Of a stretch of 64,000 bases of DNA, positions 17,966-44,493 are shown in pieces. The number at the start of each line of letters is the position of its first letter. Position 1 is the stretch's first letter. The notes beneath the pieces are model-generated. The model was not told the origin of the DNA and ran no database searches. It saw nothing but the letters and a program-made list of their open reading frames with translations. Position numbers and translations under genes: made by a program. This DNA comes from a bacterium (lineage in GTDB: Bacteria; Zhuqueibacterota; Zhuqueibacteria; Residuimicrobiales; Residuimicrobiaceae), in assembly GCA_029554865.1 (NCBI GenBank), contig JAKPUX010000202.1, positions 1 through 64,000 on the forward strand, in the 5' to 3' direction.

Positions 17966-18052
17966 GCGCTTCTCCCTCCATGAAAAAAGTTTGACTTCGA
18001 CTTAAATTTTTCGTAAGGTAAATCAAGTTTTTTTTTATCAGAAAGGACAACG

Positions 18053-19135
18053 ATGCACAAGAGCCTTTGTTTGCTGCTGCCCCTACTTTTCGCTTCGGCC
18101 TGCACCCGACCGGCCGCCTCTTCGTGGGATGCGGTCGTCGACGCCGGTTATCGGGGGAAACCAGGGGCGAAATTGGCGGGCGTGCCCTGTTACCCCTCTC
18201 TGAGCCAGGCGCTCGCCGCCGCGCCGCCAGGTGAAACCCCCTGGCGCATATTCATGCGTAAAGGCCGCTATCATGAAAAGGTGACAATCGACCGCGCCAA
18301 CCTGCATCTGCGCGGCGAGAACCGGGAAGAGGCTATCCTCTCCTTCGATGACTGCAGCGGCACCCCCGCTCCGGGTGGCTCCACCCTGGGCACCCGGGGG
18401 AGCGCCACCCTCACTATCCGGGCCCCCGGCTTCTCGGCGGAGCACATCACCATCGAGAACTGCTTCGACTATCCAGCCAATGCCCTGCGCGCCGAAAACG
18501 ACCCCGCCAAAATCGCCCACCCCCAGGCCGTGGCGGTGATGATCAGCGCCGGTGGTGACAGGATCAGCTTTGCCGACTGCGTCATCAGCGGATTTCAGGA
18601 CACCCTCTTCCCCGATGCCGGGCGCTCCCTGTTCAGCAGATGCTGCATCCTCGGCCATGTCGATTTTATCTTCGGGGCCGGGCAGGCGCTCTTTGAACAG
18701 TGTGAGATCGTCTCGCGCGACCGCCCGGGCAAGAATCCAAGCGGATATATCACCGCACCAAGCACTTCAGCAGCCTATCCCTATGGCTTTCTTTTCATCG
18801 CCTGCCGGTTGCTCAAGCAGGGGCCCGGAGTGACGGCGGGATCGGTCCGCCTCGGCCGCCCCTGGCATCCGCAGGGGGATCTCACGGTATCGGGCAGCGC
18901 GGTATTCCTTAACTGCTGGATGGACGACCATATCGGCCCGGAGGGCTATGCCGCCATCGGCTCAACCGACTCGAGCGGGAAAAAACTTTCTTTCGAAATT
19001 GAACCGGATTCGCGCTTTTTCGAGTTCGGCAGCAGCGGCCCCGGCGCCCCAGCCTCGCCCGCCCGGCCGCGCCTCACAGCGGAGGCTGCAGCCTGGTACA
19101 CCCGCGATCAGCTCCTGCGCGGCTGGAAACCCTGA
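18053..19135 (+). CDS. Pectinesterase (CE8-like), probable lipoprotein
   Basis: Lipobox-like SACTRP; RGSATLTIRAPGFSAEHITIENCF, GFQDTLFPDAGRSLFSRCCILGHVDFIFGAGQALFEQCEI, LGRPWHPQGDLTV, typical pectin methylesterase motifs. Confidence 0.9.
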   Translation: MHKSLCLLLPLLFASACTRPAASSWDAVVDAGYRGKPGAKLAGVPCYPSLSQALAAAPPGETPWRIFMRKGRYHEKVTIDRANLHLRGENREEAILSFDDCSGTPAPGGSTLGTRGSATLTIRAPGFSAEHITIENCFDYPANALRAENDPAKIAHPQAVAVMISAGGDRISFADCVISGFQDTLFPDAGRSLFSRCCILGHVDFIFGAGQALFEQCEIVSRDRPGKNPSGYITAPSTSAAYPYGFLFIACRLLKQGPGVTAGSVRLGRPWHPQGDLTVSGSAVFLNCWMDDHIGPEGYAAIGSTDSSGKKLSFEIEPDSRFFEFGSSGPGAPASPARPRLTAEAAAWYTRDQLLRGWKP

Positions 19136-26513: not shown

Positions 26514-26524
26514 ATCTCTTTCCA

Positions 26525-27715
26525 TCATCCCCTGCGAAGCAGGGCAAGGTTGCGGTTGATCAGTTCGTTGCGCTGGGCGACGCAGGCGGCCGAGCGCAGG
26601 GGATCGGGAGGGGTTTTGCGCACATAATCGACCAGGCGCTCCACCGTAGTGGTGGCGACATGGAGACGGGTATCAGAGGAGGCATAGTAGATCAGGATGT
26701 CGCCATTGTCGCGCGCCACCCAGCCGTTGGAAAAGACGACGTTGGAAACGTCGCCGACGCGTTCTTCGGCCTGCGGTGCGATGAAATAGCCCCCGGGGGT
26801 ATAAATGGGCTTTTCCGGGTGGTCGAGGTCGGTCATGAAGAGATAGAGGACGTAACGCAGTCCCGCTGCACAGCCGCGTACGCCGTGGGCCAGCTGCAGC
26901 CAGCCCTGAGGGGTTTTAATCGGGGCCGGGCCCAGGCCGTTCTTCGACTCCTTGATGGTGTGATAGAGGCGCTGGTCGATGATGGCCTCCTCCTCGATGA
27001 CCGCGTGTGCGACATCCTTGCAGAGGGCCCAGCCGATGCCGCCGCCGCTGCCAGCCGAGATGAAATCATCCTGGGGACGGGTGTAAAAGGCATATTGGCC
27101 GTCAATGAACTCGGGATGAAGCACGACATTGCGCTGCTGCGGCGAGCGGCTCTTGAGGTCGGGGAGCCGCTCCCATTTCACCAAATCGCGGGTGCGGGCG
27201 ATGCCGGCCTGCGCCACAGCCGAGGAGAGATCGCCGGGAGGGGCATTGGGGTCCTTGCGCTCGGTGCAGAAGATGCCGTAGATCCAGCCATCCTCGTGCC
27301 TGACCAGGCGCATGTCGTAGACGTTGATGTCCGGATCTTCGGTTTCGGGCATCACCACCGGAAAGTCCCGGAAGCGGAAATTATCGATGCCATTGGGGCT
27401 CTCGGCGACAGCGAAGAAGGATTTGCGGTCCCAGCCCTCGACGCGAGCCATGACCAGGATCTTCCCGTCAAGCTCGATGGCGCCGGCGTTGAAGGCGGCG
27501 TTGATGCCCATCCGCTCCATGAGAAAGGGATTGCGCTGGGGATCGAGGTCATAACGCCAGAAGAGGGGGGCATGGCCGGCGGTCAGCACCGGATGGGTAT
27601 AGCGCTGGTAGATGCCGTTATGCCAGGGCAGCGGCATATTCCGGCGGGTGACATAGGCCTCGTGTTCCCGGGTCAGCCTGGCCAGGCGTTCAGCAAAGGA
27701 CTCCACTTGCATCAT
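26525..27715 (-). CDS. GH130 phosphorylase, likely 4-O-beta-D-mannosyl-D-glucose phosphorylase
   Basis: [72 protein letters not shown]..., [50 protein letters not shown]130 subfamily-1-like. Confidence 0.92.
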
Positions 27716-27758: not shown

Positions 27759-28961
27759 TCAGCATTTTTTCACCCGCCGCGCCAGTTCCAGGCAGGTACG
27801 GCTGTTGTGATAAGGGCATTTCCATTCGGATATCTTGTGCAGCTGCCTGTCTACCCGCCGTTCGCCGTCCACCTTGTAGAACCACTCCCCGTGGATGCGG
27901 TCGATCAGATGCTCCGCGATGAAATCCCAGGCCCGGACGGCGGCAGCGAGGAATTCCGGACGACCGCTGTTCTGGTAGGCGTTTGCAAATCCAACCACAG
28001 ACTCCGCCTGCACCCACCAGTGCACATCGGGGTCGGGGCGGCCACTCTCGTCCCGCTCATAGATGAGCCCGCCATCCGGGGCCACTCCCTCGGCGAGCAC
28101 CGCCTCGGCCATGGCCACCGACACCTTCTGGCACTTGCGCGCCAGGATCGGATCGGTGAGAAGCTGGGTCGCCTCGTCAAGCAGCCAACTGGTCTCAATA
28201 TCATGTCCATATGAGACCTTGCCCGATTTAGGTTGCCATGATTCATCAAAGAAAAGGATGAGGTGATGGCTGCGGCTGTCGATGATATGGTCGAAAAAAT
28301 TATTGACGAGGCTGACCAGCCGTTCGCGCAGCCCGTCATCCCGCCATTCTCGATAGAGCCGGGTATAGGCTTCGAGCAGGTGGAGATGGGTGTTCATCGA
28401 CTTTTTCTCGTTCATATCGATCGCACTGAGGCGCAGTTCTTCAGTGGGTGACCAATCGCGGTTGGCGCTCTCGAGATAGCCGGTATGTAGCGGATCGTAA
28501 TTGTGTTTTTCGATCAGTTCGTAAATGGCCAGGGCCTGCTCGAGGGCCCCGGCATCGCCGGAGGCGGCATGGTATTCGACGAGGCTGTAAATGGCAAAGG
28601 CCTGGCCGTAGATCTTTTTACTGTCATCGATGGGCCGCCGTTCGGCATCGAGCATCCAGAAGACTCCGCCGTACCGGGGATCGATGAAGGCCGAACAAAC
28701 CTCCTCATAGGCCTTGCGGGCCATCTCCAGATAGGCCGGATTTTTATACTGGTGGAAAGCGGCGGCGAAGGTCCAGAGGATGCGGGTGGTGAGGATCAAT
28801 CCCCGCGGCGAGCGTTCGCGCACTTGCAGATCCGGTGAGACGCGCGCCCAGAATCCGCCCTGTTCCCGATCCGGCGCCTGCTCGAGCCAAAAGGGGAGAA
28901 TATTATCCAGTAGCTCCCGCTCGGTTCTCGCCGCCAGCTGCCTGCAGGTTTCACTTGCCAT
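27759..28961 (-). CDS. AGE-family sugar 2-epimerase (cellobiose/mannobiose 2-epimerase)
   Basis: [129 protein letters not shown]. Confidence 0.92.
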
Positions 28962-30804
28962 AGATCAGCTCTGCCCTTCCCAATTGGGCCTCCCCGAGGA
29001 AGGCGACGCGGACATAGTGAATGCCGTCCGGCAGGCCGCTGCTCGCAAACAGCAGCGGGCGCAGATACTCGTAATCGGCCGCACCGGCGAAGAAATCCCG
29101 TGCCTCGACCTGAAGCGGGGTGTACTCCTCCCCGTCGGCCGAAAGGCTCACCTCGATACTCTTGGCCGCCGAGGCAGCGAAGGTATAGAATTTGAGGGTC
29201 TGCAGCGGACCGGGGATATAATAGACCAGCTCCGCCCCCGGCACCCCGGCGATGCGGTGGGCATCCTCCTTGAAGAGGCGGGAATCGGCGGTCTCGAGGG
29301 AGAGATGGCCCTTCCGGCTGAAAGCGATGGCGAAGTTCCAGCACTCATCGACCAGGGTCTTGTGCCGGGTGGTGACAGGACCGACGAGATTGGAGGGGCT
29401 GGAGAGGCCGGCAGCGTTCCGGGCGCGCACGCGATAATACCAGGTCGATCCGATCGCAGCGCTGCGGTCATGGAAGAGCGGCCGGTCCGCGGTCTCGGCG
29501 TCGGAGATGTTGTAGCCGATCCGCTTCCAGGGGCCGCCGCGGGAGGCGGAGCGCTCAACGTCGTAACCCGAGGCGCCGACGGAGCCCCGCCAGCAAATAT
29601 GGGCCGGATCGTCGAAGGGAAGCAGCTGCGGGGCCTTTGGCACCGTCAGGATGGGCACCGATTTGCCCTGGATGGCAAAACCCCGTTCGCGCATCAGCTG
29701 CATCACTTCGCGCTCGGCATAATTCTCACCCGACGCGAAACCCGGCCAGTGGTAGGCCTTGTAGAAATAGCCCCCGTTGCCGGGCTCGGAATGCCAGTAA
29801 AAGCCGCCGTCGCGGCTGTGGAAGCGCAGGCTCCAGATCAACGCCCCGCAGACGCCGGGATGGGATTCCACCTCCCGCAGCACTTCCTCAACACCGGTGA
29901 GGCCGAGGAAACCGAATTCCCCAATCAGGTAGGGCTTTTTGCCCTTCGCCTTGGCAGCGCTGGCGCGGATGTTGCGCACCATATCGCGCGGATCCTTCTC
30001 GTAATGATGGGTGGTGATGATATCGGTATGAGGATTGGCGAGGGTTTCATCGCGCAGACGATTGGGAGCGACTCCGTCGAGGACGAGGTGGTTCTTGTCC
30101 TGAGATTTAATATAGGCCGCGATCTCCTCCACCCAGGCATCGGGGCTGTAGAGTTCGTTGCCGGTCTCCCAGGCCAGGATCGCCTTGTCGTCGCGGTAGG
30201 TCGTGCCGGTGATGGAGTTTTTGCGGTTGATGATGTAGAAGATGGTCTGCTTGAAATCCTCCTTGATCTGGGGATCCGTCCAGAAATCATCCGCCTTTTT
30301 GCCGCGGAAGGCGGCGTATTCCGCCCTCCCCCCCATCCAGGGCCAGTTGTCGACGAAGGGGATGATCACCCTCACCCCCACCTGGTTGGCGATGGCCATG
30401 ACCTGATCGAGGGCGCGGAAGGCCTCCTCATTGAACTGCCCGGGTCCGGTCACGTAGCGCGGGATGTCCGGGGTGTCATCCTCCCGCCGCACGGTGATGG
30501 TATACATCCGCGTCACCGTCCCCCCCATCGCCCTGATCGACTCGAGGGCGTCGCGGATTTCAAAGGCATCCGGCATGCGCCAGACATTGGTCTCTTCGAA
30601 GAGCATATAGTCTTCGATGCAGTGAAGATTGGGAATATTGAAGGAGATAAAGCGCAGGGGATCGGGACCATCCATCAGCCGATCGCCGGAAACCGTGACA
30701 AAATGGACAAAGGTTGATGGGGCCGGTGCGGCCGAAAGTGTTCCTCCGGCCAGAAACAGCGCGGCGAGCAGAACGGCTGCATACCTTTTAGGCAAAATCA
30801 TCAT
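28951..30804 (-). CDS. Secreted GH5-like (mannanase-type) protein with C-terminal Fn3/discoidin-like region
   Basis: Signal peptide; DGPDPLRFISFNIPNLHCIED, DKAILAWETGNELYSPDAWVEEIAAYIKSQDKNHLVLDG, KKPYLIGEFGF (nucleophile Glu context); Fn3-like VPKAPQLLPFDDPAHICWRGSVGASGYDVERSAS. Confidence 0.82.
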   Translation of the reverse strand: MMILPKRYAAVLLAALFLAGGTLSAAPAPSTFVHFVTVSGDRLMDGPDPLRFISFNIPNLHCIEDYMLFEETNVWRMPDAFEIRDALESIRAMGGTVTRMYTITVRREDDTPDIPRYVTGPGQFNEEAFRALDQVMAIANQVGVRVIIPFVDNWPWMGGRAEYAAFRGKKADDFWTDPQIKEDFKQTIFYIINRKNSITGTTYRDDKAILAWETGNELYSPDAWVEEIAAYIKSQDKNHLVLDGVAPNRLRDETLANPHTDIITTHHYEKDPRDMVRNIRASAAKAKGKKPYLIGEFGFLGLTGVEEVLREVESHPGVCGALIWSLRFHSRDGGFYWHSEPGNGGYFYKAYHWPGFASGENYAEREVMQLMRERGFAIQGKSVPILTVPKAPQLLPFDDPAHICWRGSVGASGYDVERSASRGGPWKRIGYNISDAETADRPLFHDRSAAIGSTWYYRVRARNAAGLSSPSNLVGPVTTRHKTLVDECWNFAIAFSRKGHLSLETADSRLFKEDAHRIAGVPGAELVYYIPGPLQTLKFYTFAASAAKSIEVSLSADGEEYTPLQVEARDFFAGAADYEYLRPLLFASSGLPDGIHYVRVAFLGEAQLGRAELIYGK

Positions 30805-30827: not shown

Positions 30828-32240
30828 TTATCGCCTGTTCAACACCCCTTCGTACCAGGCATGGATCGGCGCCGGATTTCTCTCGATGCGGAGCTGGCTG
30901 CGCAGCTTTTGCAGGTGCTCCTGCATCGTGCCAGCCCGTTTCGCGATGAGAGCGTCCCGGGCGATGAGATCGCGCGTCTCCTCCAGTCCGAGATGGGGAT
31001 ACTTTTTTCCATAGTGCTCATTGAAATAGCGCTGCAGGTCCCGCTCCTCCACCCTGATCTCCGCGAGCAGGCGCTGGCGTATGGCCATCTGCAGCCGGTT
31101 TTGCTCGAACTGGGCGGTCTTGATGCGGACCTGATCATCGCGTTCGAGTCCCATCCGCCGCGCCTCCGCGCTGAGGGCACGGTCGCGCAGGACAAAGTCG
31201 AGGGCCGTCTTCATGCTCCTGTGGACGGCGTGGTAGGGCACGTAATTGAGCGCGGCGATGAATTCGCCGATGGTGAGAATCTCGCCATCAATGCTGGCGA
31301 GGGGCTCCTTGCGCATCTCCCAGAGCGAGGCTTCGATCTCCCCCATCTCCGCATCGCTGAGTTGTTCAGTGCGAAGTTGATCGGCGGTGGAGGGCTGGCG
31401 TTTGAGCACCACGCCGAGCTTCTGGCCGACGGCGCGCAGGCTGCGCGGATAGACCTGGATCTTTTTCTCCTTCATCATCCCGCTGATATAGGCGAGGGCC
31501 GCCTTGTCGCCGAGCTTGCGTTCGAGCACCGCCCGGGCATTATTGCGCTGGAGCTGGTACTGGCCCTCAGGGAGCAGGGGCGTCCGGCGCCAGTCCGCCA
31601 CCTGGAGGATGTGCCAGCCATAGCTGGAGGCGACCGGCTCGGAGTAAACCATGAGGGGGAGGCTGAAGGCGGTGAAGCCCAGGTCGTACTCCATCTGCTC
31701 CCAGGCGACCCAGCCGAGGTCGCCGCCGGTTTCAGCGAGGCGCGGGTCGTCAAAGAGGCCGCGCGCCAGTTCGAACCAGTCGGCACCCTCCTGCAGGAGG
31801 TGGTAAAGGGAATCGATGCCCACCCGGGTCGGACTGAAGAGATGGCGGATATGGCGCTCCTCGGTCATCCAGGCGAAGGTGCGCTCGAGATCGGCCTCAT
31901 TGTAGCTGATCCCCGGCTTGATCACCTTGCGGAAATGGGCGTCGCGCAGATTCCGGTCGCGATTGGCGCCGACGCGATAGGCCAGCCGTTCGTCAGCGGC
32001 CATGCCCAGCCCGTGCGCCTCACGCGCAAGCAGCCGCCGGTCGATCATCTCGTCGAGGAACTGTTCGCGCAGCTCCCGGGAATCAAAGGCGTTGGGCTGC
32101 TTGATGATCTCCAGATAGGCGGTCTTGAACTCCTCGAGGGTGATACGCTCCCTGCCGAGACGCGCAACGGCGGGATCCTTCCTGCCGCAGGCGAGGAGGA
32201 GCAGACCGAAAGAGAGAGCGATAAGTGCACACCTTGTCAA
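30828..32240 (-). CDS. Peptidylprolyl isomerase (SurA/PpiC parvulin-like) lipoprotein
   Basis: LLTRCALIALSFGLLLLACGRKDP lipobox; RHIRHLFSPTR...GADWFELARGLFDDPRLAETGGDLGWVAWEQM...YGWHILQVADWRR parvulin fold. TTG start at 32240 with GGGAG SD; the ORF-track start at 32372 runs through an intergenic repeat. Confidence 0.82.
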   Translation of the reverse strand: MTRCALIALSFGLLLLACGRKDPAVARLGRERITLEEFKTAYLEIIKQPNAFDSRELREQFLDEMIDRRLLAREAHGLGMAADERLAYRVGANRDRNLRDAHFRKVIKPGISYNEADLERTFAWMTEERHIRHLFSPTRVGIDSLYHLLQEGADWFELARGLFDDPRLAETGGDLGWVAWEQMEYDLGFTAFSLPLMVYSEPVASSYGWHILQVADWRRTPLLPEGQYQLQRNNARAVLERKLGDKAALAYISGMMKEKKIQVYPRSLRAVGQKLGVVLKRQPSTADQLRTEQLSDAEMGEIEASLWEMRKEPLASIDGEILTIGEFIAALNYVPYHAVHRSMKTALDFVLRDRALSAEARRMGLERDDQVRIKTAQFEQNRLQMAIRQRLLAEIRVEERDLQRYFNEHYGKKYPHLGLEETRDLIARDALIAKRAGTMQEHLQKLRSQLRIERNPAPIHAWYEGVLNRR

Positions 32241-32263
32241 TAAGGACTCCCGAAGCGGAATCG

Positions 32264-32316
32264 CGCAAAGACGCAGAGGCGCAGAGAAAACTGCTCTTCT
32301 CTGCGTACTCTGCCTC
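32264..32316. repeat. Intergenic short-unit repeat/hairpin element (CGCAAAGA-CGCAGAGG-CGCAGAGA ... TCTCTGCG-TACTCTGC)
   Basis: Three ~8-bp direct units followed by two inverted units, between the 1202-aa secreted protein gene and the PPIase gene. Confidence 0.7.
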
Positions 32317-32378
32317 CCAGCGGGGAATAATGGTTTTGTTTGGCGGCAGTGAAAAAATCCATCCCCTGCCAAAACTGA

Positions 32379-35300
32379 TTATTTAATGATCAGCATCCGG
32401 CCCGTGGTGTTGCCGATGCCCGGGGCCTCGATGTGGTAGATGTAGACGCCGTATGCAATATCCATGCGGTCCTTGGTGAACATGTCCCACTCCTCGGAGC
32501 CGTCGGTCATCTCCGAATCATGTTCGATGGTATTGACCAGGGTGCCGTCGACCGCGAAGATACGGATGGTGCATTTCTGCGGCAAATGGATGAACTGGAC
32601 GGAACGGGGCCCTCGCCCGCTGGTATAGGGGTTGGTGGGCTCCCAGGCAGCGGCGACGACATAGGGATTGGGCACGACCTTGATCTTGTCGAGATTTCTG
32701 GCTGCAAAGGCGTTGTCCACCTTTTGTCCCTTGACGACGAACTGATAGCGCACGTTGCCGGTAAAGGGAAAGTCGGGATAGACATTCAGGGTATCCCCGG
32801 CGCCGAGGGCGCGGCCGTAGGTATTCCAGAAAACCGTGTCCTCCGAGGCGTTATTGAGGATGTTGAAAGTGATCAGGGTCGAATCGTTGGGCAGCTTTTC
32901 GAACATGACGATCCGGTCCTTGGCCGAGAACATTCCCCTCTTGATTTTCTTTGGGGTCAGGGTCTGGTCGACCAGGGCGAAGGGCAGTTCCTCCATGGTC
33001 TGCTTGTCATAGACGCGGAAGTTGGCGTCTGTCGCAGGCAGGGGGATGGTCTTGTTGCTGGTCGCCAGGGGCACCTGGAGGGTTTCGGATTTCTTGACGA
33101 TGTCATCATAGAAGACGACCATGTACTGGCGGGGATAGTAGGTCCCCTCCTTGAATCCGCTCAGATTGAAGATGGAGAAGCGGATATTGTAGGCGGTGGT
33201 GAAATTGATGTTCGAACTCCACTGTACGCCGTTGTAGATGCGCTCCTCCGGCCGGTTGATCATGCCCTCAGGGGGATTGTAGATGTTGAATTCCATGCCG
33301 TGGAGGACGGTCGTGAGGGTGCGGGGGTCGCTGTCGGCATCCTCGTAGAGGTTTTTCACTTCGACCCATTCCCCGGCACTGTACTCCCGCTGGATGATCA
33401 TGACCGTATCCTCAGGCAGGGAGGTTTGGGTCAGGTTGCGGAGGACAAATCCGGAGGTCACTGTGGGCATCAGTTCATCGACATCCTCTCCGTCGATAAG
33501 GCCGTCGTTGTCGTTGTCCCGGTGGTCCATCGAATGGTCGAGGAACTGCACCTCGTAGCGGTCGCCGTCGCGGATCTCATCCGGCTTAAGGTAGCGGAGG
33601 TTGACCGCCCCCGAGGTCTTGCCGGTGCCGATCTGGCGCGGCTGTTCGGAGAGGCCGGGGCCGCTGTAGCCGAGCGAGGGCGCCTGGGGCACCACCACGA
33701 CGACATTATCGCCGGTGGTAATGTCTCCCGAGGCGTTGACCGAAACATACATGTTGGTCTCCGAGGGGGCGATGTTCTTTTCGATGCTGCCCCGGTCGTA
33801 GGCGTTCACGGCATAGAAATAGCGCCGGCCGTTGACGAGCGGGGAATCGACAAAGACATGCACCAGCCCGGTCTCGTTGCCGAGGTTGAACTGGACGCCG
33901 GTGCCGAAGGTGTTCTGATAAAAGCCGAAGACGCTGTCGACCTTGTCGTAAATGGCCAGGGGCTTGACGTAGCGGGTGTAGCCGTAGCCATCGCTGATCG
34001 AGCCGGCATCCTTGAAGCCCGGATCGGTGGCGCGGTAGATCTTGTAGCCCTCAAAGTCGTACTCATGCAGGTAGCGGTCCACGCTCTCCTCCGCACGGCT
34101 GTCCCAGAAGAGGGTGACCTTGCGGTCGCCGGCGACGGCGCGCAGTTTGGGTTTTTCCGGGGCGACGGCGAAGTTATAGTTGGAATTATAGATCTTTTGC
34201 ACGATATCCTTGTTGCGCAGAATATCCTGCTGATCATCACCATAGACCATGGCGACCGAGAAGAACTCTTGCTGGCCGGGATTGAGGGGGAAGTAGCCGC
34301 AGGAGAAGATATAGTCGGCATCGACGTTCTCGAGATGACCGTCGAAATAGCCGGGGGCCGACTCGTCCCACATCTGGGCGTCATTGCTGTAGGTGATGTT
34401 GCCGTATTCATAAAAGACAAAGCTGGTGAGGCCGATCTGGTCCGATTCGTCGACGTCGGTGTGGTCGACGTTGGGCTCGCCGGGCAGATCGCCGATGCCG
34501 GCTGTGGGCAGGCCGTCCCCTTCGCCGGGGTCGCCGGATCCGCTCTTGCCGTCCATGCCCATGTCATCGGTCTTGATATCCCAGTCTCCGTCGTTGTCGA
34601 TGCCGTCATCGCGGCGTTCGTCGATGAGCAGGTTGGTCAGCCCCTCGCCGGTGAGATAATCCTTGGCGAGATAGTCCTGGTTATTGTACTTGGCGTCGCG
34701 GATGTAGAGGTAATAGGCCATTGAATCGGGGGCCACAGCGCCGTCGGACTCGTCGATGAAGCCGTTGAGATTATCGTCGATGCCATTGCGCTCGATCTCC
34801 ATCAGGGGCGCGCCCGGCTTTTTGATATAGGTCGTGCCGTTTTGGCGAATGGTCACCCCCTCGGCCGGCATGGAGCCGACAGTGCGGGTATATTCGTCAC
34901 TGCTATAGTCGATGAGGACGACCGGATCCCCGACCATATAGCTGCGCAGAAAGTCCTCGGTGGTGAGGAGGTGGCCGCCGCCGTTGATGCCGTCTCCATC
35001 ATTGTCGATGCCGTCCCTGGCATTGCCCGGGCTTTCGAGAAAGGCGTAGCCCACCCAGGGCACAGGGCTGTAACCGGCAGTGCCGATATTATCCCAGTCA
35101 TAGTTGACGGTCAGATCGAGTTCGCGATAAAAGGTGGCGCAGTCGTCGTCATAATCGGTGTTGTCGCTGATGGTCGCGCCGATGGAGGCGCCGACGTTGA
35201 GGCCGAAGATGGTCTTGGTGTGGTAGAGTTCACCGATATTCTTGATCTCATAGATCCAGAAGATGCAGTCCTGGGCATCGGGATTGGACCACTGCAGGCC

Positions 35301-35987
35301 GCGGACGTTCTGGCGCAGGCCGATGCCGCCGCGCTGTGACTCCGAGGCGATCGGACGCGGCAGGGGCAGGCCGTCGACCTTCTTCTTGAAGCTCCAGTCA
35401 TCCATGGCATAAAAGGACTCTTCATCGGAGTTCTTCTGGTCGCGGCCGAAATAGCCGTTCCAGCTGCCGGCCCAGCCGGGTTTGGTGGCGTCATCCATCT
35501 TGTCCGGCCATATCGAGGGCCAGGTGTAGGCCTGGTGGCTCATGGCGATGGCGTGATAGGGATCGGCCTCCTTGTTGGCCAGGTCATAATAGCCGGGCAG
35601 GGGCTCGAAGCCGAGAAAGACGCCCAGAGAATCGTGCGAGAAAATATTGGGGTCCCACCCCTGGCAGAAGACGCAGGGGGTGATCACCGTATAGGTGGAG
35701 TCGCCGACCGAATCGATGCCGGCGAAGGTGCGCAGCGCGGAGCTGACGTACATGGAGGCGTTGCCCATCTGGATATGACCGGAGTTAATGGGCCATTCGC
35801 CGGCATAGATCAGGCTGTTGTCGCCCTTGATCCCGCCGACCATGCCGTGGTTGTAAAAGGTGACGCGAATCAGGTTGCCCGCGTGAATGTTGCGGGCACG
35901 GTTCTGATAACTGCCGTGCGTGGTCTGCGCTCCCGCCTGGGCCAGAAGTGTGGAGAGCGTCAGCATCATCAAAAGACGTACTTTCAT
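32379..35987 (-). CDS. Large secreted protein (1202 aa) of unknown function with Asp-rich calcium-loop-like motifs and T9SS-like C-terminal domain
   Basis: Signal peptide MKVRLLMMLTLSTLLAQAGAQ; DGIDNDGDGING, RNGIDDNLNGFIDESDG, DGIDNDGDWD, HRDNDNDGLIDGED; C-term IKVVPNPYVVAAAWEP...GVYIYHIEAPGIGNTTGRMLIIK. Confidence 0.8.
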   Translation of the reverse strand: MKVRLLMMLTLSTLLAQAGAQTTHGSYQNRARNIHAGNLIRVTFYNHGMVGGIKGDNSLIYAGEWPINSGHIQMGNASMYVSSALRTFAGIDSVGDSTYTVITPCVFCQGWDPNIFSHDSLGVFLGFEPLPGYYDLANKEADPYHAIAMSHQAYTWPSIWPDKMDDATKPGWAGSWNGYFGRDQKNSDEESFYAMDDWSFKKKVDGLPLPRPIASESQRGGIGLRQNVRGLQWSNPDAQDCIFWIYEIKNIGELYHTKTIFGLNVGASIGATISDNTDYDDDCATFYRELDLTVNYDWDNIGTAGYSPVPWVGYAFLESPGNARDGIDNDGDGINGGGHLLTTEDFLRSYMVGDPVVLIDYSSDEYTRTVGSMPAEGVTIRQNGTTYIKKPGAPLMEIERNGIDDNLNGFIDESDGAVAPDSMAYYLYIRDAKYNNQDYLAKDYLTGEGLTNLLIDERRDDGIDNDGDWDIKTDDMGMDGKSGSGDPGEGDGLPTAGIGDLPGEPNVDHTDVDESDQIGLTSFVFYEYGNITYSNDAQMWDESAPGYFDGHLENVDADYIFSCGYFPLNPGQQEFFSVAMVYGDDQQDILRNKDIVQKIYNSNYNFAVAPEKPKLRAVAGDRKVTLFWDSRAEESVDRYLHEYDFEGYKIYRATDPGFKDAGSISDGYGYTRYVKPLAIYDKVDSVFGFYQNTFGTGVQFNLGNETGLVHVFVDSPLVNGRRYFYAVNAYDRGSIEKNIAPSETNMYVSVNASGDITTGDNVVVVVPQAPSLGYSGPGLSEQPRQIGTGKTSGAVNLRYLKPDEIRDGDRYEVQFLDHSMDHRDNDNDGLIDGEDVDELMPTVTSGFVLRNLTQTSLPEDTVMIIQREYSAGEWVEVKNLYEDADSDPRTLTTVLHGMEFNIYNPPEGMINRPEERIYNGVQWSSNINFTTAYNIRFSIFNLSGFKEGTYYPRQYMVVFYDDIVKKSETLQVPLATSNKTIPLPATDANFRVYDKQTMEELPFALVDQTLTPKKIKRGMFSAKDRIVMFEKLPNDSTLITFNILNNASEDTVFWNTYGRALGAGDTLNVYPDFPFTGNVRYQFVVKGQKVDNAFAARNLDKIKVVPNPYVVAAAWEPTNPYTSGRGPRSVQFIHLPQKCTIRIFAVDGTLVNTIEHDSEMTDGSEEWDMFTKDRMDIAYGVYIYHIEAPGIGNTTGRMLIIK

Positions 35988-36010: not shown

Positions 36011-37093
36011 TTACAGCGCTAAAATGAGCGAGAACTTGTTTTGCCTGTCGAGGAGGCCATAATCGATCATGGCATAATCGAACATAACTTCGGTGCGGAG
36101 CACCCTGGCGTGCAGCCCCATGCCGAGGGTGAGGCCGCCCTGGGTGTCGGCGAGAAAAAGCTGCCGGTAGCCGCCGCGCAGCGACAAGAGCTGCTTGAAG
36201 GTATACTCGGCGCCGACATTGAGATACTCCTTGTTGTCACTGGGATGGATGGCATCCACGGCGACGATGAAATCATGCTCCTGAATCCCGAAGAAATCCT
36301 CGGCCAGATTGGCGGAGAGGCCGACCCGGAAGAGGATCGGCAGGGGGAACTGATCGGTCGAGAGCTGGGCGTTGATGCTGCCATTGTTGCCATCGCTGGT
36401 CTGGTCGATGTCGTGCTGGACCAGCATGTCGCGGCCTTCGATCTGCATGTCCGAACCGAAATTGGAGATCGACATGCCGATTTTGAGGTTCTTGAAAAAG
36501 GTGCGGTACTGGATGCCGACATCCATGGCCAGCCCGCTGGCATCGCTGTGCCAGATTGATTCGTGGATGAGCTTGGCCGAGCCGCCGATGGCAAACCGGT
36601 CGGTCAGGCTGCGGGCATAGCTGAGTCCGGCGGCGAAAGAGCTGGCGGAGACCATTTCGCCGTTGCCGTCCGGATAGGTGATGGTGGTGCGCTCGATATC
36701 GGGCATGCCGAGATAGGAGAAAAATAGACCGAAGGAACCCACATTGCGCACGGGGATGGCGATGCCGGCGAATTCGAAGGACATATCCGCCAGATAGTCG
36801 TAGTGGTTGAGCAGGATTTGCATGCGCTCGATCTTGGCCAGTCCGGCGGGATTCCAGAACATCGCAGTAGCATCTTCGGCCTGGGTGGCGACGGCTTCGC
36901 CCATGCCCAGGGCGCGGGCACCGACCCCGATTTTCAGAAAGGCGGCCGAGCTGGTGCCCACTCCGCTCACCTTCTGGGCGAGGAGCGGGGCCGTCCCGGC
37001 GAGCAGGAACAGCAGTACAGCAGCAGCCAGCAACAGATTCCCGGCGCTTGTTCTCTGCTGCAGAAGTTTTACTCTTTTATTCATCATGACCAT
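36011..37093 (-). CDS. PorV/PorQ family outer-membrane beta-barrel protein
   Basis: VSGVGTSSAAFLKIGVGARALGMGEAVATQAEDATAMFWNPAGLAKIERMQILLNHYDYLADMSFEFAGIAIPV, characteristic N-terminus of FadL-like PorV/PorQ proteins. Confidence 0.88.
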   Translation of the reverse strand: MVMMNKRVKLLQQRTSAGNLLLAAAVLLFLLAGTAPLLAQKVSGVGTSSAAFLKIGVGARALGMGEAVATQAEDATAMFWNPAGLAKIERMQILLNHYDYLADMSFEFAGIAIPVRNVGSFGLFFSYLGMPDIERTTITYPDGNGEMVSASSFAAGLSYARSLTDRFAIGGSAKLIHESIWHSDASGLAMDVGIQYRTFFKNLKIGMSISNFGSDMQIEGRDMLVQHDIDQTSDGNNGSINAQLSTDQFPLPILFRVGLSANLAEDFFGIQEHDFIVAVDAIHPSDNKEYLNVGAEYTFKQLLSLRGGYRQLFLADTQGGLTLGMGLHARVLRTEVMFDYAMIDYGLLDRQNKFSLILAL

Positions 37094-37104: not shown

Positions 37105-40104
37105 TTACTTGCTCAGTCGCAACCCGAATTGAATAAAACGCGGCGAGGAGTAATTGCCGGGCCTGGTGAAATACTCAGCGACGTTGGAGATCTCGACATC
37201 CGGCATCCCCACGCGGTCGACCTGATTGATCCCCTGCAAGGTGTAATCGGGCTGGCCGGTGTCAGAATAGATGCCGGTGGCGTTGCGGGTGTCGAGCAGA
37301 TTGGTGATGTTGCAAAAAATCTGGGCCCGGAAGGTGCCGATATTGACCAAGCGGCCGACGCGAAGATCGAGATTATAGGTGAGGGGCTTGCGCTCGCTGT
37401 TCTCGCGCAGGCCCGTAAAGGTGCCGGAACCCGAAACCTCACCGCGCGCAAAAGAGGGGGTGTAGGGCAGGCCCGAATTAATCGTGCTGACCAGACTGGT
37501 CGACCAGCCGCGGTTGGCGTAGCTGATCACCGTATTGAGGGCCTGACGCTGATCCCAGTTGAGGTCGATCATCTGGACGCGCGGTGCCTCCTTGGCGAGG
37601 GCGTCATAATAAGCGTCCTGTGGATCCGAAGAGGTCCCCTTGGCGGTCATGTAGGTATAATCGAGATTGATCGCCAGCTTGCTGAGACGGTAGCTGGCCG
37701 AAAGCGTGACCCCCTTGGCCGCCGCATGATCCTTGTTGACATACATGTAATAGGTCATGCCCTGATAGGTGTCAATGGGCTCCCCGGTCCCCAGCCAATC
37801 GCGGATATCACGATAAAAGCCGGTGAGATGGAGATAGAGATTCTCCGAGAGCTGCTGCTGGAGTCCGAGTTCGTACATCACCGTGCGCTCGGCATTGAGA
37901 TCGGCATTGCCGACCAGATTGCTGGCGCCGGCTCCGGTGATCCAAAAATTGGGATTGTCGTAGAGATAGCTGAGCTGGGGATTCTGGAAAAACCAGCCGT
38001 AGCTGAAATGGATGACCCCCTTGTCGGTGATCGGAAAACTGAGCCCGAAGCGCGGCGAGAGCTGCGACTTGGCCTGGGCCTTTTTCCACCAAAAGCCCTC
38101 CCGTTCGGCGACAGTATACTTGACCAGCTCGCTGTCGGGCGTGGAGGGGGTATAGTTCCGGTAAATATGGTCCATCTTGAAGGGGGAGTAGATCTGGGGA
38201 TCCATCGGATCGGCCAGGACGCGCCCGTCCGGATCGAAGCGGTCATAGCGCAAACCGATATTGATGATCAATTCATTGAACTCGATCTTGTCCTGGATGT
38301 AGGCCGAATACTCCTTGGGCTTGACGCCATACTTGACATGGAATGGCGAGCTCTCATCCGGGACGATCGGACGGAAGGTGACGTCGGAGAACTGGAGCTG
38401 GAACCAGTCGTTGCGCAGATCATTCAAGGTGGTCGCGGCACCAATCTTGACGAGATGGCGCTTGTTGATCTGGCTGGTCAGATCGAGGCTGAAATTGTAA
38501 TATTCGACATCGTTCTTGCCGATATCGGTCGAATTGCCATAATAGGTGAAATCATTGACGCGGGAGATGACCGAGATGTTGTCCTCCGCCCTGCGGCCGT
38601 AAACATACTGCTCAATCATCGCCGATTCAGTCGGCATGTAGCGAGGATCGTACGGGTCCTCATAGAGAAAATTCTTGTGGGCCTTGTCGTAATAGTTGGC
38701 CTTGAAATCGATAAAGGTGCTCTTGGAGGCGATATACTTGGCCGAAAAGATATGGGTCTGACTGCGGGTATTGTAGAACTTGCCGGCGTCCGGCACATAT
38801 TTGTAGTTCCAGCCGACCCCGTAGCTGCGGTCATAGTTGTAGTAGAGGCCGTAGGAGAGCTTGAGCTTGCTCGAAGCATCGAGGAAGAATTTGGCCTGGG
38901 AGGAATAGCCCTTGTACCAGCCCAGGGGCACCATCTGGTTGTCGGCCGCGGCGAAGGTGTGGACGGTATCACCGACCGGGGACTGGAAGCCCCAGGGCAT
39001 GAAGTAGCGCACTCCCTGGGTGAAGCTCGGACTGTCCTGCACGCGCCCCGAGATGAAATAGGTGAGCCGCTTCTGGGTGAAAGGGATCGGTCCCGAGATG
39101 TTGACCTGGAAATCGGTGTTGGTGGTCGGGTTGTAGCTGTCGAGATAGGATTTCTTCGTCAGCCAGGGTTTGGTCGCCTGGGCGGAGGAGGTGTAGGGAT
39201 TGACGTCGCCGAAATCGTAGAGGATAAAATTGCCCCCGCGGGTGAGAGCACGCGCGGCGGCGTTGGCCCAGGCAGGGTTGTTCATGACGTAATAGGTGCC
39301 ATCATCGAAGCTGAGATGGTCTCCGAAATAGCCGGTGGCATTGATACGGAATTCATCGCTGCCCTGCTTGGTGACGATGTTGACCACGCCCGAGAGGGCC
39401 TGGCCATATTCGGCGTTGAAGGTGCCGGTGATGGTCTTGAGCTCCTGGATGGCCTGATCGTCGATGCTGATGCCCGCCGAGCGGCTGAGGGGATCGACCA
39501 CCTTGACGCCGTCGACCATGTAGGTGATCTCGCTGGTGCGACCGCCGCGGATGTGGAGGTTGCCGCCATCATCGGTGACTACGCCGGCCTGCAGATTGAC
39601 CAGTTCGGCGACGCTGCGCACCGGCAGCTGGTCGATCTTGTCCGCCCCGAAGGAGACCTGGGAGGAGGTTAAATCCTTCTGAATCTGCACCCGGTCGGCG
39701 ATGATGTCGATCGATTCCCCGCTCTCGAGCACCGTGGTGGAGAGACGGGTGTCGAGTTTGGTGGTGAGGTCGACGCTGACCGCCACCTGGGTCTTGTTGA
39801 CCGACTGGTAGCCGATATAGACGAAGCGGACGGTGTAGACCCCGGGCTTGATGTTGATGATGTAATACTCGCCGTTGGGATCGGTGACAGCCCCCTGAAC
39901 GGCCGATCCGCTGAGCGGAATAACCCGCCCGCTTTCGATGCGTTCGACGATCATCACGTTGGCGCCGATGAGGGGCTGCCCGTTCGCGGCATCGGTGACC
40001 CGGCCGGAGATTTTTCCCGTCTCCCCCGCCATAAGCGGCGCCGGTAGCAGACCGGCGCACAAGGCCAGGAGGGCGAGCAGGAGGATAGCGGAGCGGTACG
40101 ACAT
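37105..40104 (-). CDS. TonB-dependent receptor with N-terminal carboxypeptidase-regulatory-like domain (SusC-like)
   Basis: GKISGRVTDAANGQPLIGANVMIVE, plug domain VRSVAELVNLQAGVVTDDGGNLHIRGGRTSEITYMVDGVKVVDPLSR...NAEYGQALSGVVNIVTKQGSDEF, beta-barrel and C-terminal FIQFGLRLSK. Confidence 0.93.
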   Translation of the reverse strand: MSYRSAILLLALLALCAGLLPAPLMAGETGKISGRVTDAANGQPLIGANVMIVERIESGRVIPLSGSAVQGAVTDPNGEYYIINIKPGVYTVRFVYIGYQSVNKTQVAVSVDLTTKLDTRLSTTVLESGESIDIIADRVQIQKDLTSSQVSFGADKIDQLPVRSVAELVNLQAGVVTDDGGNLHIRGGRTSEITYMVDGVKVVDPLSRSAGISIDDQAIQELKTITGTFNAEYGQALSGVVNIVTKQGSDEFRINATGYFGDHLSFDDGTYYVMNNPAWANAAARALTRGGNFILYDFGDVNPYTSSAQATKPWLTKKSYLDSYNPTTNTDFQVNISGPIPFTQKRLTYFISGRVQDSPSFTQGVRYFMPWGFQSPVGDTVHTFAAADNQMVPLGWYKGYSSQAKFFLDASSKLKLSYGLYYNYDRSYGVGWNYKYVPDAGKFYNTRSQTHIFSAKYIASKSTFIDFKANYYDKAHKNFLYEDPYDPRYMPTESAMIEQYVYGRRAEDNISVISRVNDFTYYGNSTDIGKNDVEYYNFSLDLTSQINKRHLVKIGAATTLNDLRNDWFQLQFSDVTFRPIVPDESSPFHVKYGVKPKEYSAYIQDKIEFNELIINIGLRYDRFDPDGRVLADPMDPQIYSPFKMDHIYRNYTPSTPDSELVKYTVAEREGFWWKKAQAKSQLSPRFGLSFPITDKGVIHFSYGWFFQNPQLSYLYDNPNFWITGAGASNLVGNADLNAERTVMYELGLQQQLSENLYLHLTGFYRDIRDWLGTGEPIDTYQGMTYYMYVNKDHAAAKGVTLSASYRLSKLAINLDYTYMTAKGTSSDPQDAYYDALAKEAPRVQMIDLNWDQRQALNTVISYANRGWSTSLVSTINSGLPYTPSFARGEVSGSGTFTGLRENSERKPLTYNLDLRVGRLVNIGTFRAQIFCNITNLLDTRNATGIYSDTGQPDYTLQGINQVDRVGMPDVEISNVAEYFTRPGNYSSPRFIQFGLRLSK

Positions 40105-40246: not shown

Positions 40247-40283
40247 TAAAAAAGGATGGGGTGATCACAAGACCACCCCATCC
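40247..40283 (-). terminator. Rho-independent terminator downstream of the tandem-CBM gene
   Basis: Minus strand GGATGGGGTG-gtcttgtgat-CACCCCATCC-TTTTTT. Confidence 0.88.
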
Positions 40284-40292
40284 GGTGAGGAA

Positions 40293-43200
40293 TTACTTGA
40301 GAAGCGTCATCTTGAGAATATGGGTGTACTCCGGCGTGACCATGCGGCAGAAATAGACGCCGCTGCTGACGGCCTGACCGGCGTTGTTCTGACCATTCCA
40401 GGTGATGACATGCGCGCCGGCGGCCATGCGGCCGTCGACCAGGGTCGCCACCTCTTTGCCGAGCAGATCATAGACCGCAATCCGGACCTGGGTGCTGCGG
40501 GCCACCTGATAGTTGATCGTGGTGACCGGGTTGAAGGGGTTCGGATAGTTGTTCTTGAGCTCGAAAACCAGGGGCTGCTGGGCTTCGGCCTCGACAGCAG
40601 TCGGGCCGCCGACCACCTGCAGGAAACCGAAGGTGGAGGGACGCTTCCAATCCTCGGAATTGGCCTGGTTGCCCCAACCGGTCCAGAGCGTACGCTCGGT
40701 GTCGCCCTTGGAGGGATCGAGATCGGTGCCGTCGATGCGCAGGGGCAGCATGGCGCCATCGACGACATCGAGATTGCCACCCTTGGCCAGAGAATCGAGG
40801 GCGATGCGGACTTCGATGATGTAGCCATCGCCGGTGAATTTCTGGTAGACGGTGCGCTCCACTCCCGGGAACTCATAATCGGAGGAGCCGCTCTTCTGCG
40901 TGGTGCCCCAGGCGGTGAAGCTGATGCGCCAATCGCCGGTGCCAGCCAGATCGACATCCTTGTAGAGATGGGGCGGTTCGAGCACGGAATTGTAAAAGCC
41001 GAGATAGAACTCGAGGGCATCGCCCATCCAGGCCTGGCTGCCGGAGACGATCGGCTCGCTGCCGGAAGCATTGAGGTCATCATCAGTGACGTCAGCGGAG
41101 ATGTAGAGATAATTGGCATCAATGATGAAGGTGGCGTTCCAGCTCATATCAGTGGAAGCCGGGGTCCAGCCGGTGGTGTCCGAACCGTTGTGACGCTCGG
41201 CCTTGAGGCCATACTGCTTATAGTCGGTGAACTCATTGTCCAGGCCGTCCAGGGAGAAGACGCTGGCAAAATTCTCGACATAGAAGGCCTTGGCAGTGAC
41301 GCTGCTGTTGCAAGTGAGTGGGCCGACCCGCGATTTGTCACCGAGATCATATTCAGTTCCCTCGGCATCGACCGCCGCGACCGCGAAATAGTAGGTCACC
41401 TGTTCGCTCTGGGCCGTCCAGGGGCGGTAGGAGTAGTACTGGGTGCCGTGAGGGACAGCATTGCCAATGAGGATGACGCCCGGATCGGAGACGTTGTTAA
41501 TCGGCGACTTGCTCATGTAAACGTTGTAGGTCTCGGTGCCGATTTCATTGTCTTCCCAGGTGACGTTGAAGTACTCGAAATAGGTCCCGTTGGCGCTGAA
41601 AGTGCCGATCTCGCCCGCGATGTCCGGAGAGAAGACCTTGCCCTCGGGGGCCTTGACGCCGAGAAGGGTAAAGTTGTCAAAGTAGATCGTGCCCGCCCAG
41701 TCGTTGTCGACGTTATAATAGATCTGGCAGCCGACGGTGAGGACTGCGGTGGGATCGACTTCGCCGGTACCGACATAGTGGAGCACATCGTAGGTCATCT
41801 TGTTCCAGGTGCCCGGCTTGAAGGTGCTGTCGCTGAGGAAGAAGGATTTCTCGGTCCAGGTCCAGGTGGCATGGTCCATGACGAAGATTGAGATCTGGGC
41901 GCCGAGCGGGGCGTCGGCGGGAACCCAGACATCCATGGTGATGGCGGTGGCGCCAGTGTCAGTCTTGGTGGGCCAGCCGAGATTAATGTTGGCATTGTCG
42001 AAGGAGCCCTTCTTGGAACCGGCGAGGGCCTTGCTGAAATCCCAGTTGGTCACCAGCACGCCGGTGGTGCGGCCGGAGGGATCAGCACCCTGGGCGACGC
42101 CGATGAGGCCGGCGCCCCAGTTGTTGTTGACGAAGTTCTGGGTGCCGGCCGAGGCCTTTTCCCAGTTGGCGACGACCCACTTGTCGCCCACTTCGAGGGT
42201 GTGCAGGGTGTAATCATCCATCAGGACCTTGCCCGTCCAGGTCAGACCGGCGCCGAAATAGATCTCGATGCCGCCCTTGACCTTCAGCCAGGGCTGGAAG
42301 TTGGGCCAGGTCTCCATGGCGCGTTTGATCGGGTAGTGAATGGTGTTCCACTGGCCGGCCTTGATGCGCTCACCTTCACCGCCGACAGAGAACTTGTAGT
42401 CGGTCCACTGCCAGGCGCCTTCGGCGATCTGCATCCAGACCTTCAGGACCGCAGTAGCCGGAAAATCGGCGGGGACCCAGACCTTGAAAGTGGCGAAATA
42501 GGCGCCGGGGGCCTCGGCCGAGGTCCAGAGCATATTGACCGGATCGGTGCCGATGGCGGCCTTGGTATCGCCCTGGGCGGCATCACAGTTGAGGGCCAGC
42601 ACCTTGTTGCCGGCGACGGCGGGATCATCCTCGACCGCAACCGAGAGCAGGGCATCGCCCCAGTATTTGCCGAAATTGCCATTATTGGCAGTGAAATCGG
42701 TCACCACGACGGGCTCGACACCCGCCAGGGCGAAATTATCGAAGAGGACATCTCCGGCCCAGGTCGGACTTGAACTTTTATCACTCGGGAAATAAACTTC
42801 TACGCCGCCCTTGATCTTGAGCCAGGGCTGGAAATTGGCATAGGCTTCCATCATCGCCGAAACGGGATAGTGGAGGGTGACCCACTGGCCGGCCTTGAAA
42901 TGGTTGCCCTCGCCGGCGATGGACCATTTATAGTCGGTCCACTGCCAGGAGCCTTCTGCAATCTGGGCCCAGAGCTTGACGACGGCGGAATCGGGAAAAC
43001 CCTCGGGGACATAGACATCGATGGTGAAGAATTTGGCACCCTGCACATCAGCGGCGGTCCAGCCCAGGGGCAGGGGATCGACGCCGATGGCGGCCTTGCC
43101 GTCGCCAGTGGCAGCGGTGCACGAGAGCTTCAGGACGCCGGTGCTGCGTCCGGAGGGATCGGCAGCCTGCGCCAGAGCGGTGCCGGCATTGCCCCACCAG

Positions 43201-43322
43201 ATGCCCCAGTTTTGCGTGCCTTCTGCGGCGTTCTCAAAATCAAATTTGACCTGAGAAAAAGCCAGTCCGCTGAGCAGCAAAACCGCGAGCACTGCCACCA
43301 TCATTTTCAAAAACAGTTTCAT
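40293..43322 (-). CDS. Secreted surface protein with three tandem ~180-aa CBM-like domains, a CBM9/DOMON-like domain and T9SS C-terminal domain
   Basis: Repeats containing QIAEGSWQWTDYKWSIAGEGNHFKAGQW / QIAEGAWQWTDYKFSVGGEGERIKAGQW; FIIDANYLYISADVTDDDLNA...WMGDALEFYLGFYN; NNYPNPFNPVTTINYQV. Start at 43322 (SD AGGAGGCAAGC). Confidence 0.85.
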   Translation of the reverse strand: MKLFLKMMVAVLAVLLLSGLAFSQVKFDFENAAEGTQNWGIWWGNAGTALAQAADPSGRSTGVLKLSCTAATGDGKAAIGVDPLPLGWTAADVQGAKFFTIDVYVPEGFPDSAVVKLWAQIAEGSWQWTDYKWSIAGEGNHFKAGQWVTLHYPVSAMMEAYANFQPWLKIKGGVEVYFPSDKSSSPTWAGDVLFDNFALAGVEPVVVTDFTANNGNFGKYWGDALLSVAVEDDPAVAGNKVLALNCDAAQGDTKAAIGTDPVNMLWTSAEAPGAYFATFKVWVPADFPATAVLKVWMQIAEGAWQWTDYKFSVGGEGERIKAGQWNTIHYPIKRAMETWPNFQPWLKVKGGIEIYFGAGLTWTGKVLMDDYTLHTLEVGDKWVVANWEKASAGTQNFVNNNWGAGLIGVAQGADPSGRTTGVLVTNWDFSKALAGSKKGSFDNANINLGWPTKTDTGATAITMDVWVPADAPLGAQISIFVMDHATWTWTEKSFFLSDSTFKPGTWNKMTYDVLHYVGTGEVDPTAVLTVGCQIYYNVDNDWAGTIYFDNFTLLGVKAPEGKVFSPDIAGEIGTFSANGTYFEYFNVTWEDNEIGTETYNVYMSKSPINNVSDPGVILIGNAVPHGTQYYSYRPWTAQSEQVTYYFAVAAVDAEGTEYDLGDKSRVGPLTCNSSVTAKAFYVENFASVFSLDGLDNEFTDYKQYGLKAERHNGSDTTGWTPASTDMSWNATFIIDANYLYISADVTDDDLNASGSEPIVSGSQAWMGDALEFYLGFYNSVLEPPHLYKDVDLAGTGDWRISFTAWGTTQKSGSSDYEFPGVERTVYQKFTGDGYIIEVRIALDSLAKGGNLDVVDGAMLPLRIDGTDLDPSKGDTERTLWTGWGNQANSEDWKRPSTFGFLQVVGGPTAVEAEAQQPLVFELKNNYPNPFNPVTTINYQVARSTQVRIAVYDLLGKEVATLVDGRMAAGAHVITWNGQNNAGQAVSSGVYFCRMVTPEYTHILKMTLLK

Positions 43323-43482: not shown

Positions 43483-44493
43483 TCACGCCGATACGCGTGC
43501 GGCCACGGATTCCCGTTCGATCAGCCGGGTCGGGACGAGGGTGGTGACCGGCTGCACTATTTCATGGTTCAGCACCTTGAAGAGGGTGCGCACTGCGATG
43601 GAACCCATCTGCTCCTTGTAAACGCGGATGGTGGAGAGGGGCGGCGAGATCATCTTGCCCAGCTCGATGTCATCGAAGCCGATGATGGAGATATCGTCAG
43701 GAACGCTGAGGCCGTGGTCAGTGACCGCCTTGTAGCCATAAATGGCATTGATGTCGTTGGCAGCAAAGATGGCGCTCGGGGGTTCGGGCAGGTCGAGGAG
43801 GGCGCTGAGATGGTCATAGCCCTTCTCCAGGCCGCCGCAGCGCACCAGCTCCTCGCAGAGAGGGAGTCGGGCGAATTCGAGGGCTTTGCAATAACCGTCA
43901 AGGCGCTGGCGGAAGCTGAGCCGGTCGAGATCGCCGGAGATAAAACCGATGCGGGTATGGCCATGATCAAGAAGGAACTGGACGGCCTGAAAGGCGCCGT
44001 GTTCGTTGTCGATCAGCACCTGGGAAAAGGTGTTGCTGGTGATCTTGGGGTCGACCAGAACAGTGGCGATCTCGAGTGAAGCGAGCTGGTCGATAAACGC
44101 CTGCTGCAGCACCCCGATGAGAATGAGGCCGTCGACCTGACGCTCACGGATCATCTTGGGAATGGCGGTGGTGTGTCCCTCGGGGAGAAGATGGAGGACG
44201 AGGCTGTGGTTGCTGACGGCGAGTTCGGCCTCGATGCCCTCAAGCACGCGTGAATAAAAAGGATTGAGGGAGAGGGGCAGTTGTTCGCGGCAGAAGATGA
44301 CCCCGACGCTTTCGGTGATTTTTTTCTTGAGGGCCTTGCCGAGGGCGTTGGGATGAAAATCGTGTTCCCTGGCGATGGCGAGGATGCGCTGGCGGGTGGC
44401 CTCGGCGACATCGGGGCGGCCGTTGAGGGCCTTGGAGACGGTGGCCGCCGAGCAGTGGGCGGCCTTGGCGATGTTTTTTATGGTAGTCATCAC
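43483..44493 (-). CDS. LacI-family transcriptional regulator
   Basis: MTTIKNIAKAAHCSAATVSKALNGRPDVAEATRQRILAIAREHDFHPNALGKAL helix-turn-helix/hinge; periplasmic-binding-like effector domain. Confidence 0.95.
   Translation of the reverse strand: MMTTIKNIAKAAHCSAATVSKALNGRPDVAEATRQRILAIAREHDFHPNALGKALKKKITESVGVIFCREQLPLSLNPFYSRVLEGIEAELAVSNHSLVLHLLPEGHTTAIPKMIRERQVDGLILIGVLQQAFIDQLASLEIATVLVDPKITSNTFSQVLIDNEHGAFQAVQFLLDHGHTRIGFISGDLDRLSFRQRLDGYCKALEFARLPLCEELVRCGGLEKGYDHLSALLDLPEPPSAIFAANDINAIYGYKAVTDHGLSVPDDISIIGFDDIELGKMISPPLSTIRVYKEQMGSIAVRTLFKVLNHEIVQPVTTLVPTRLIERESVAARVSA

Follow-up and report, generated by a model that had tools for sequence, protein, structure and literature searches.

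The Sus-like system is the textbook route of polysaccharide use in Bacteroidota, with SusD regarded as its signature component. The stretch of DNA analysed here (64,000 nucleotides of contig JAKPUX010000202.1; hereafter the window), from an uncultured bacterium of the neighbouring candidate phylum KSB1, carries a TonB-dependent locus in a genome that shows no SusD: a search of the whole host genome gave no match to PF07980 or PF14322. Between a LacI-family regulator and a TonB-dependent receptor, where the initial annotation had correctly placed it, lies the gene for a secreted protein of three-repeat glycan-binding type, here called P, which that annotation had put forward as a SusE/F-type substitute. 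We consider it likely that P is a surface mannan-binding protein with a role in uptake, exported by the type IX secretion system (T9SS) and acting in a SusD-less TonB-dependent beta-mannan locus, a reading that draws on sequence comparison among genomes of this uncultured group, all of them metagenome-assembled (MAGs).

The gene runs from an ATG at 43322, with AGGAGG just ahead of it, to a stop at 40293, exactly as initially annotated, and encodes 1009 residues (Table 1). Its three domains, described earlier as homologous units of about 180 residues, proved to be repeats of about 175 residues whose local pairwise scores (D1–D2 484, D1–D3 217, D2–D3 188) lie far above the maxima from 300 shuffles (71, 57 and 52, respectively), and the sequence blocks quoted in that annotation were found letter for letter in the translation. 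The annotated CBM9-like module and sorting domain also held up, the former as a CBM9_1 match (PF06452, residues 716–904, E 4.6e-13) and the latter as a TIGR04183 match of 30.6 bits against a curated cut-off of 23. A family search of P matched no catalytic family, in keeping with the earlier failure to see a catalytic motif; that earlier reading had overlooked an FN3-like module and a strong hairpin right behind the stop codon. With a signal peptide, a sorting domain above cut-off and a translocon gene in the host genome (SprA_N, E 9.8e-41), P has the attributes of type A T9SS cargo, and it is predicted to be displayed on the surface. As judged from alignment and modelling, the three repeats and CBM9 give P four modules of CBM fold or CBM family. 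The closest named relative is from a candidate division KSB1 MAG (73% identity in the best segment), and in a single-sequence phmmer search of the PDB the sole matches of P were FlgD tails.

Table 1. Positions in the window of gene P, its parts and the neighbouring genes, with the basis of each assignment.
Feature	Position	Strand	Basis
Whole gene P	40293..43322	-	translation, family matches, ribosome site
Signal peptide of P, MKLFLKMMVAVLAVLLLSGLAFSQ, no lipobox cysteine	43254..43322	-	direct reading of translation
Repeat D1 (aa 24-203); putative ligand W43 + W126	42714..43253	-	alignment, CBM27 mapping
Repeat D2 (aa 205-377); putative ligand W221 + W304; modelled beta-sandwich	42192..42710	-	alignment, model
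Repeat D3 (aa 382-557); putative ligand W402 + W487; most conserved across species	41652..42179	-	alignment, tree
FN3-like linker module (aa ~564-670)	41313..41633	-	reading, conserved in alignment A4; no Pfam match
CBM9 module (aa 716-904), both clamp tryptophans W765, W892	40611..41177	-	Pfam, TmCBM9-2 alignment
Type IX secretion sorting domain (aa 926-1009)	40296..40547	-	NCBIfam TIGR04183
13-bp stem-loop then TTTTTT, between P and TonB receptor gene; terminator-like	40254..40283	-	folding energy, shuffles
LacI-family regulator, directly upstream of P	43483..44493	-	family match
TonB-dependent receptor, carboxypeptidase-regulatory-like N-terminus	37105..40104	-	family match
PorV/PorQ-family outer-membrane protein	36011..37093	-	family match
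1202-aa exported protein, no known family, FlgD-like tail; recurrent TonB-receptor companion	32379..35987	-	family search
SurA-like peptidyl-prolyl isomerase	30828..32372	-	family match
GH5-like glycoside hydrolase	28951..30804	-	family match
GlcNAc 2-epimerase-family sugar epimerase	27759..28961	-	family match
GH130 mannoside phosphorylase	26525..27715	-	family match
GH2 beta-mannosidase-type enzyme	23898..26528	-	family match
Sodium:solute symporter	22075..23901	-	family match
GH26 beta-mannanase with type IX sorting domain	8456..11347	-	family match

No curated Pfam family covers D1–D3 of P, and neither P nor any of the 36 repeats, from 16 proteins, that make up our repeat profile (A2) has a CBM27 Pfam match at E<=1. 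When this profile was compared with all solved structures, the best match was CsCBM27 of a beta-mannanase (1pmh, E 0.009, profile positions 2–168 of 172), followed by weaker matches to CBM15 and a sugar-binding protein; this profile-to-sequence match is the sole sequence match to CBM27. A model of D2 built from an alignment of six sequences has the CBM beta-sandwich fold (pLDDT 84, pTM 0.81), one of five models being confident and the other four scoring 65–68. Foldseek placed it with CBM44, a Bacillus mannanase CBM (1wky), CBM11, CBM27, CBM30, CBM22 and the xyloglucan SGBP-B 7k44 (E 1.6e-6 to 5.7e-4), together with beta-sandwiches that do not bind glycans (MAM, Reelin and FlaA of the flagellar sheath), at TM-scores near 0.5–0.63, which indicate a common fold and not near kinship.

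The mannan platform of CBM27 consists of Trp23, Trp60 and Trp113 (PMC10167667). In an alignment of CsCBM27 with the repeat profile, tryptophan fills the column of Trp23 in 34 of the 36 repeats and that of Trp113 in 33, the equivalents in P being the pairs listed for each repeat in Table 1, and the local motif FGxxWGDxL was common to the repeats and CsCBM27. The Trp60 column has no aromatic partner in the aligned repeats, so these keep two of the three positions of the CBM27 platform rather than the whole of it. Two proteins (L054 and L055), both in loci of different layout, are without the second tryptophan and a neighbouring one. Taken together, the D2 fold, the CBM27 profile match and the conserved ligand-type tryptophans bear out the CBM-like nature that had been proposed for the repeats, and they are predicted to be specific for mannan. 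TmCBM9-2 matches the CBM9 module by profile (E 1e-13), and the clamp of that protein, Trp71/Trp175 (PMC8280721), aligns with the two clamp tryptophans of P, a mapping that assumes an offset of one since the PDB chain index runs one above the published numbers. In all 17 chassis rows aligned, the clamp is aromatic, with W or Y at the first position and W at the second, which together with the PF06452 match makes the module a CBM9 member.

In a tree of the repeats, a single clade (support 100/99) takes in every D3 copy of the three-repeat proteins, while D1 and D2 group by genome lineage; D1–D2 identity inside one protein is 43–82% and mostly exceeds the identity of each to its counterpart from the host genome in other families. 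D1 and D2 look to have been repeatedly duplicated or homogenised, D3 being the older fixed copy. Short relatives carry a D3-type copy only. The repeats are candidates for a new mannan-binding CBM family, one that would come with named tryptophans to mutate.

Comparison with other genomes showed that the order LacI, P, TonB receptor, PorV, 1202-aa protein and peptidyl-prolyl isomerase recurs across KSB1 families, in most cases next to GH26 mannanases. The gene order of the window, whole or in large part, is found in six genomes (G002, G024, G017, G028, G023 and G063) and, as far as the contig ends, in two more (G046 and G034), and LacI is the next upstream gene in eight, the host (G000) included (with G005, G024, G040, G056, G017, G028 and G023). 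Among nine three-repeat loci with room downstream, the receptor is next or next-but-one in eight; the three-repeat locus of G040 has no TonB receptor nearby, and the receptor does not directly follow the one- and two-repeat relatives. Six genomes (G000, G023, G028, G040, G046 and G063) have GH26 genes near a P-type gene, as called from Pfam or full-length identity with cross-hits through the shared sorting tail disregarded. The recurrence of GH26, GH130, epimerase and LacI neighbours supports the mannan link proposed in the initial annotation. A search upstream of P for perfect or near-perfect LacI operator palindromes found none common to the loci. In one locus (L047, G017:C2:146000-165999), the receptor, the 1202-aa gene and the isomerase are each in two or three frames, which probably reflects sequencing indels in a few-contig assembly.

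The C-terminal part of P is more widely conserved than its heads. A profile of the FN3–CBM9 part (A4), searched in 81 KSB1 genomes, found this chassis in 41. Where genes with other heads on the chassis had room, a receptor lay within four genes in 27 of 31 and directly next in 21; for comparison, by a slightly unlike distance rule, a receptor plug lies within 2.5 kb downstream of 11 of the 147 other sorting-tail genes of the host genome. In that genome, type IX sorting tails number about 150 and TonB receptor plugs 39. It carries the chassis three times, each with a different head and each in a TonB-receptor locus: in P, in a gene whose head consists of CBM4_9-like repeats and whose neighbours are ROK and GH20 genes (L057, G000:C354), and in a gene that has a head of two parts and lies near GH5-like, GH3 and GH16 genes (L058, G000:C367), this last head being distantly similar to the repeats of P (hhalign probability 88%). 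The case for heads that determine substrate specificity rests most strongly on the presence of one chassis with different heads in three loci of a single genome, and the best explanation is that the FN3–CBM9-sorting part is a common chassis whose substrate-specific heads are exchanged from locus to locus. If so, the substrates of uncharacterised KSB1 loci might be predicted from their heads.

The hairpin behind the P stop codon has a folding energy of -26.3 kcal/mol and a z-score of -6.5. Its equivalents in the other loci (L042–L061) stand at the same place with unrelated sequence across KSB1 families, and only some have the T-run. Against mononucleotide shuffles, hairpins with z below -2 stand behind the stop codon of 15 of 16 genes with the repeats and of 23 of 35 chassis genes without them, as against 2 of 37 receptor, 3 of 29 PorV, 3 of 32 1202-aa and 1 of 21 SurA genes. 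For binding-protein genes such as malE, more binding protein than partner is known. If the hairpin acts as a partial terminator or stabilises the 3' end, more binder than receptor would result, and by this analogy it may cause P to be made in excess. P and the receptor may belong to one operon, although the hairpin between them looks like a terminator.

The absence of SusD is not general in the group. The idea that all KSB1 are without it was rejected, as SusD_RagB matches are present in 29 of the 81 genomes (for example G014, G035, G042, G056, G063 and G076–G078), which makes the absence a trait of the host lineage and of the P locus rather than of KSB1. The host genome's family as sampled has no SusD_RagB match; nine of the 12 genomes with a full or nearly full three-repeat locus are without SusD, and in the other three (G046, G056 and G063) the matches are on other contigs. 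Having a receptor, hydrolases and LacI but no SusD, the locus falls outside the definition of a polysaccharide utilisation locus (PUL) by a SusC/SusD pair. A literature search for KSB1 glycan loci with TonB, SusD or T9SS components found no published report. The 1202-aa companion is a candidate for taking the position of SusD in the host lineage: stretches homologous to it occur at many places in the host genome, most of them adjoining TonB receptors. AlphaFold, given two sequences, modelled its residues 21–460 at pLDDT 27, and this model was set aside.

P resembles SusE/SusF and SGBP-B (BACOVA_02094; B. uniformis SGBP-B 7k44) in being a non-catalytic protein of tandem beta-sandwiches whose gene lies by that of a TonB receptor in a glycan locus. 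These Bacteroidota proteins are lipoproteins encoded after a SusC/SusD pair, whereas P has a type IX tail, no cysteine among its first 40 residues and no SusE, SusF or SGBP Pfam match, and its gene precedes the receptor in a genome without SusD. The proposal of a SusE/F-type substitute thus stands as an analogy of role, given the lack of SusD and the conserved place before the receptor, and fails as a statement of homology. The best reading is that P works like SusE/F or SGBP-B without being a member of that family, very likely doing the job of the SusE/F-type proteins of gut Bacteroides with another anchor and no SusD partner. The B. ovatus galactomannan PUL has the same set of epimerase, symporter, phosphorylase and GH26, and its SusE-positioned BACOVA_02094 binds mannans (PMC5217682). 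Another parallel is CHU_1279 of Cytophaga hutchinsonii, from an atypical cellulose PUL that has no SusD. This protein is SGBP-B-like, has CBM11-like domains and lies by a predicted TonB-type barrel; it differs in having two domains, in binding cellulose and in organism and locus layout, and the available portion of its description mentions no FN3–CBM9 chassis (PMC12016534). CBM27 (CsCBM27-1, 1pmh; TmCBM27, 1of4/1oh4) shares with the repeats the beta-sandwich, a nearly full-length profile alignment and the company of mannanases, but P has three free tandem copies that are not attached to an enzyme and are only weakly similar to it, and on the features compared the repeats fall outside the CBM27 family. 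Likewise, TmCBM9-2 (1i82) belongs to a xylanase and the CBM9 of P to a non-catalytic surface protein. By description, the repeats can also be likened to CBM112, a two-tryptophan, beta-mannan-specific CBM that occurs in putative SGBPs too (PMC13357471).

In the mechanism that we propose, the three CBM27-like repeats in tandem would hold mannan chains along the backbone, each through two stacking tryptophans and in series for avidity, while the CBM9 module would clamp the chain ends that surface mannanases, the sorted GH26 among them, set free. Oligosaccharides caught in this way could then be handed over to the adjoining TonB receptor and, once imported, be split inside by the GH130 enzyme, the epimerase and the mannosidase; the post-stop hairpin would allow for more binder than receptor.

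Some results sit less easily with this reading, among them the modest 1pmh match, the missing Trp60 equivalent and the non-glycan folds in the Foldseek list, and the ligand of the repeats could be seen otherwise. They might have a different beta-glycan, for example glucan or xyloglucan, as their specific ligand, since repeats of some relatives, though not of P, have weak, subthreshold Pfam matches to the xyloglucan-binding SGBP_B_XBD (best 3.2e-6) and the best fold matches include CBM11 and CBM44; the best profile match is nevertheless to a mannan CBM and P has genes for GH26, GH130, a GH2 mannosidase-type enzyme and an epimerase in its neighbourhood, and we regard this as unlikely. We judge it very improbable that the repeats, instead of binding carbohydrate, are structural spacers of beta-sandwich fold or domains that bind protein. 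The missing Pfam family and the MAM, Reelin and flagellar-sheath matches would suit such a role, as would the CBM27-like fold without aromatic platform in NnGH92, judged possibly structural (PMC10167667), yet tryptophan at two of three platform positions in almost every repeat, the motif common with CsCBM27 and the GH26 mannanases beside the gene in six genomes all argue for binding.

The function of P, rather than its ligand, is at issue if it serves as an adhesin, attaching whole cells to the plant cell wall, and has no part in uptake, the adjacency to the receptor reflecting co-regulation only. Several CBMs in series with a surface-sorting tail would fit adhesion, as would the terminator-like hairpin that parts P from the receptor gene and the G040 gene that stands without a receptor. 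Since the receptor stays adjacent in many families, and does so with several heads unrelated to one another, and since LacI and mannoside-catabolism genes adjoin P, we think this quite unlikely. We give slightly less credence still to the idea that the TonB receptor complex depends on the presence of P for its assembly or stability, with sugar binding secondary. There is a precedent in CHU_1279, variants of which still restored growth with much reduced cellulose binding (PMC12016534), and the wider conservation of the chassis than of the heads would agree with it; ligand-type tryptophans in nearly all repeats and heads that vary with the enzymes of the locus speak against it. The preferred reading remains that of a mannan binder serving uptake.

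A bolder generalisation, which we advance tentatively and with some doubt, is that KSB1 has a SusD-independent mode of uptake in which a type IX-exported binder, with a constant FN3–CBM9-sorting chassis and swappable heads (CBM27-like for mannan, CBM4-like in the GH20 locus, CBM11-like in the GH16/GH3 locus), serves each TonB receptor and owes its excess production to a conserved post-stop hairpin, the repeats founding a new CBM family and the 1202-aa companion perhaps replacing SusD. Conserved KSB1 loci that keep receptor, enzymes and surface binders without SusD raise the question of what SusD is for. Further genes of the window were also seen in or next to the mannan-gene region. Adjoining the mannan genes is a gene (12915–16004) whose 1029-aa product has numerous SBBP beta-propeller repeats along with a weak sorting tail, and within the region are a GDSL esterase with an F5/8 domain and a sorting tail (16178–19135) and, on the opposite strand to it, a pectinesterase.
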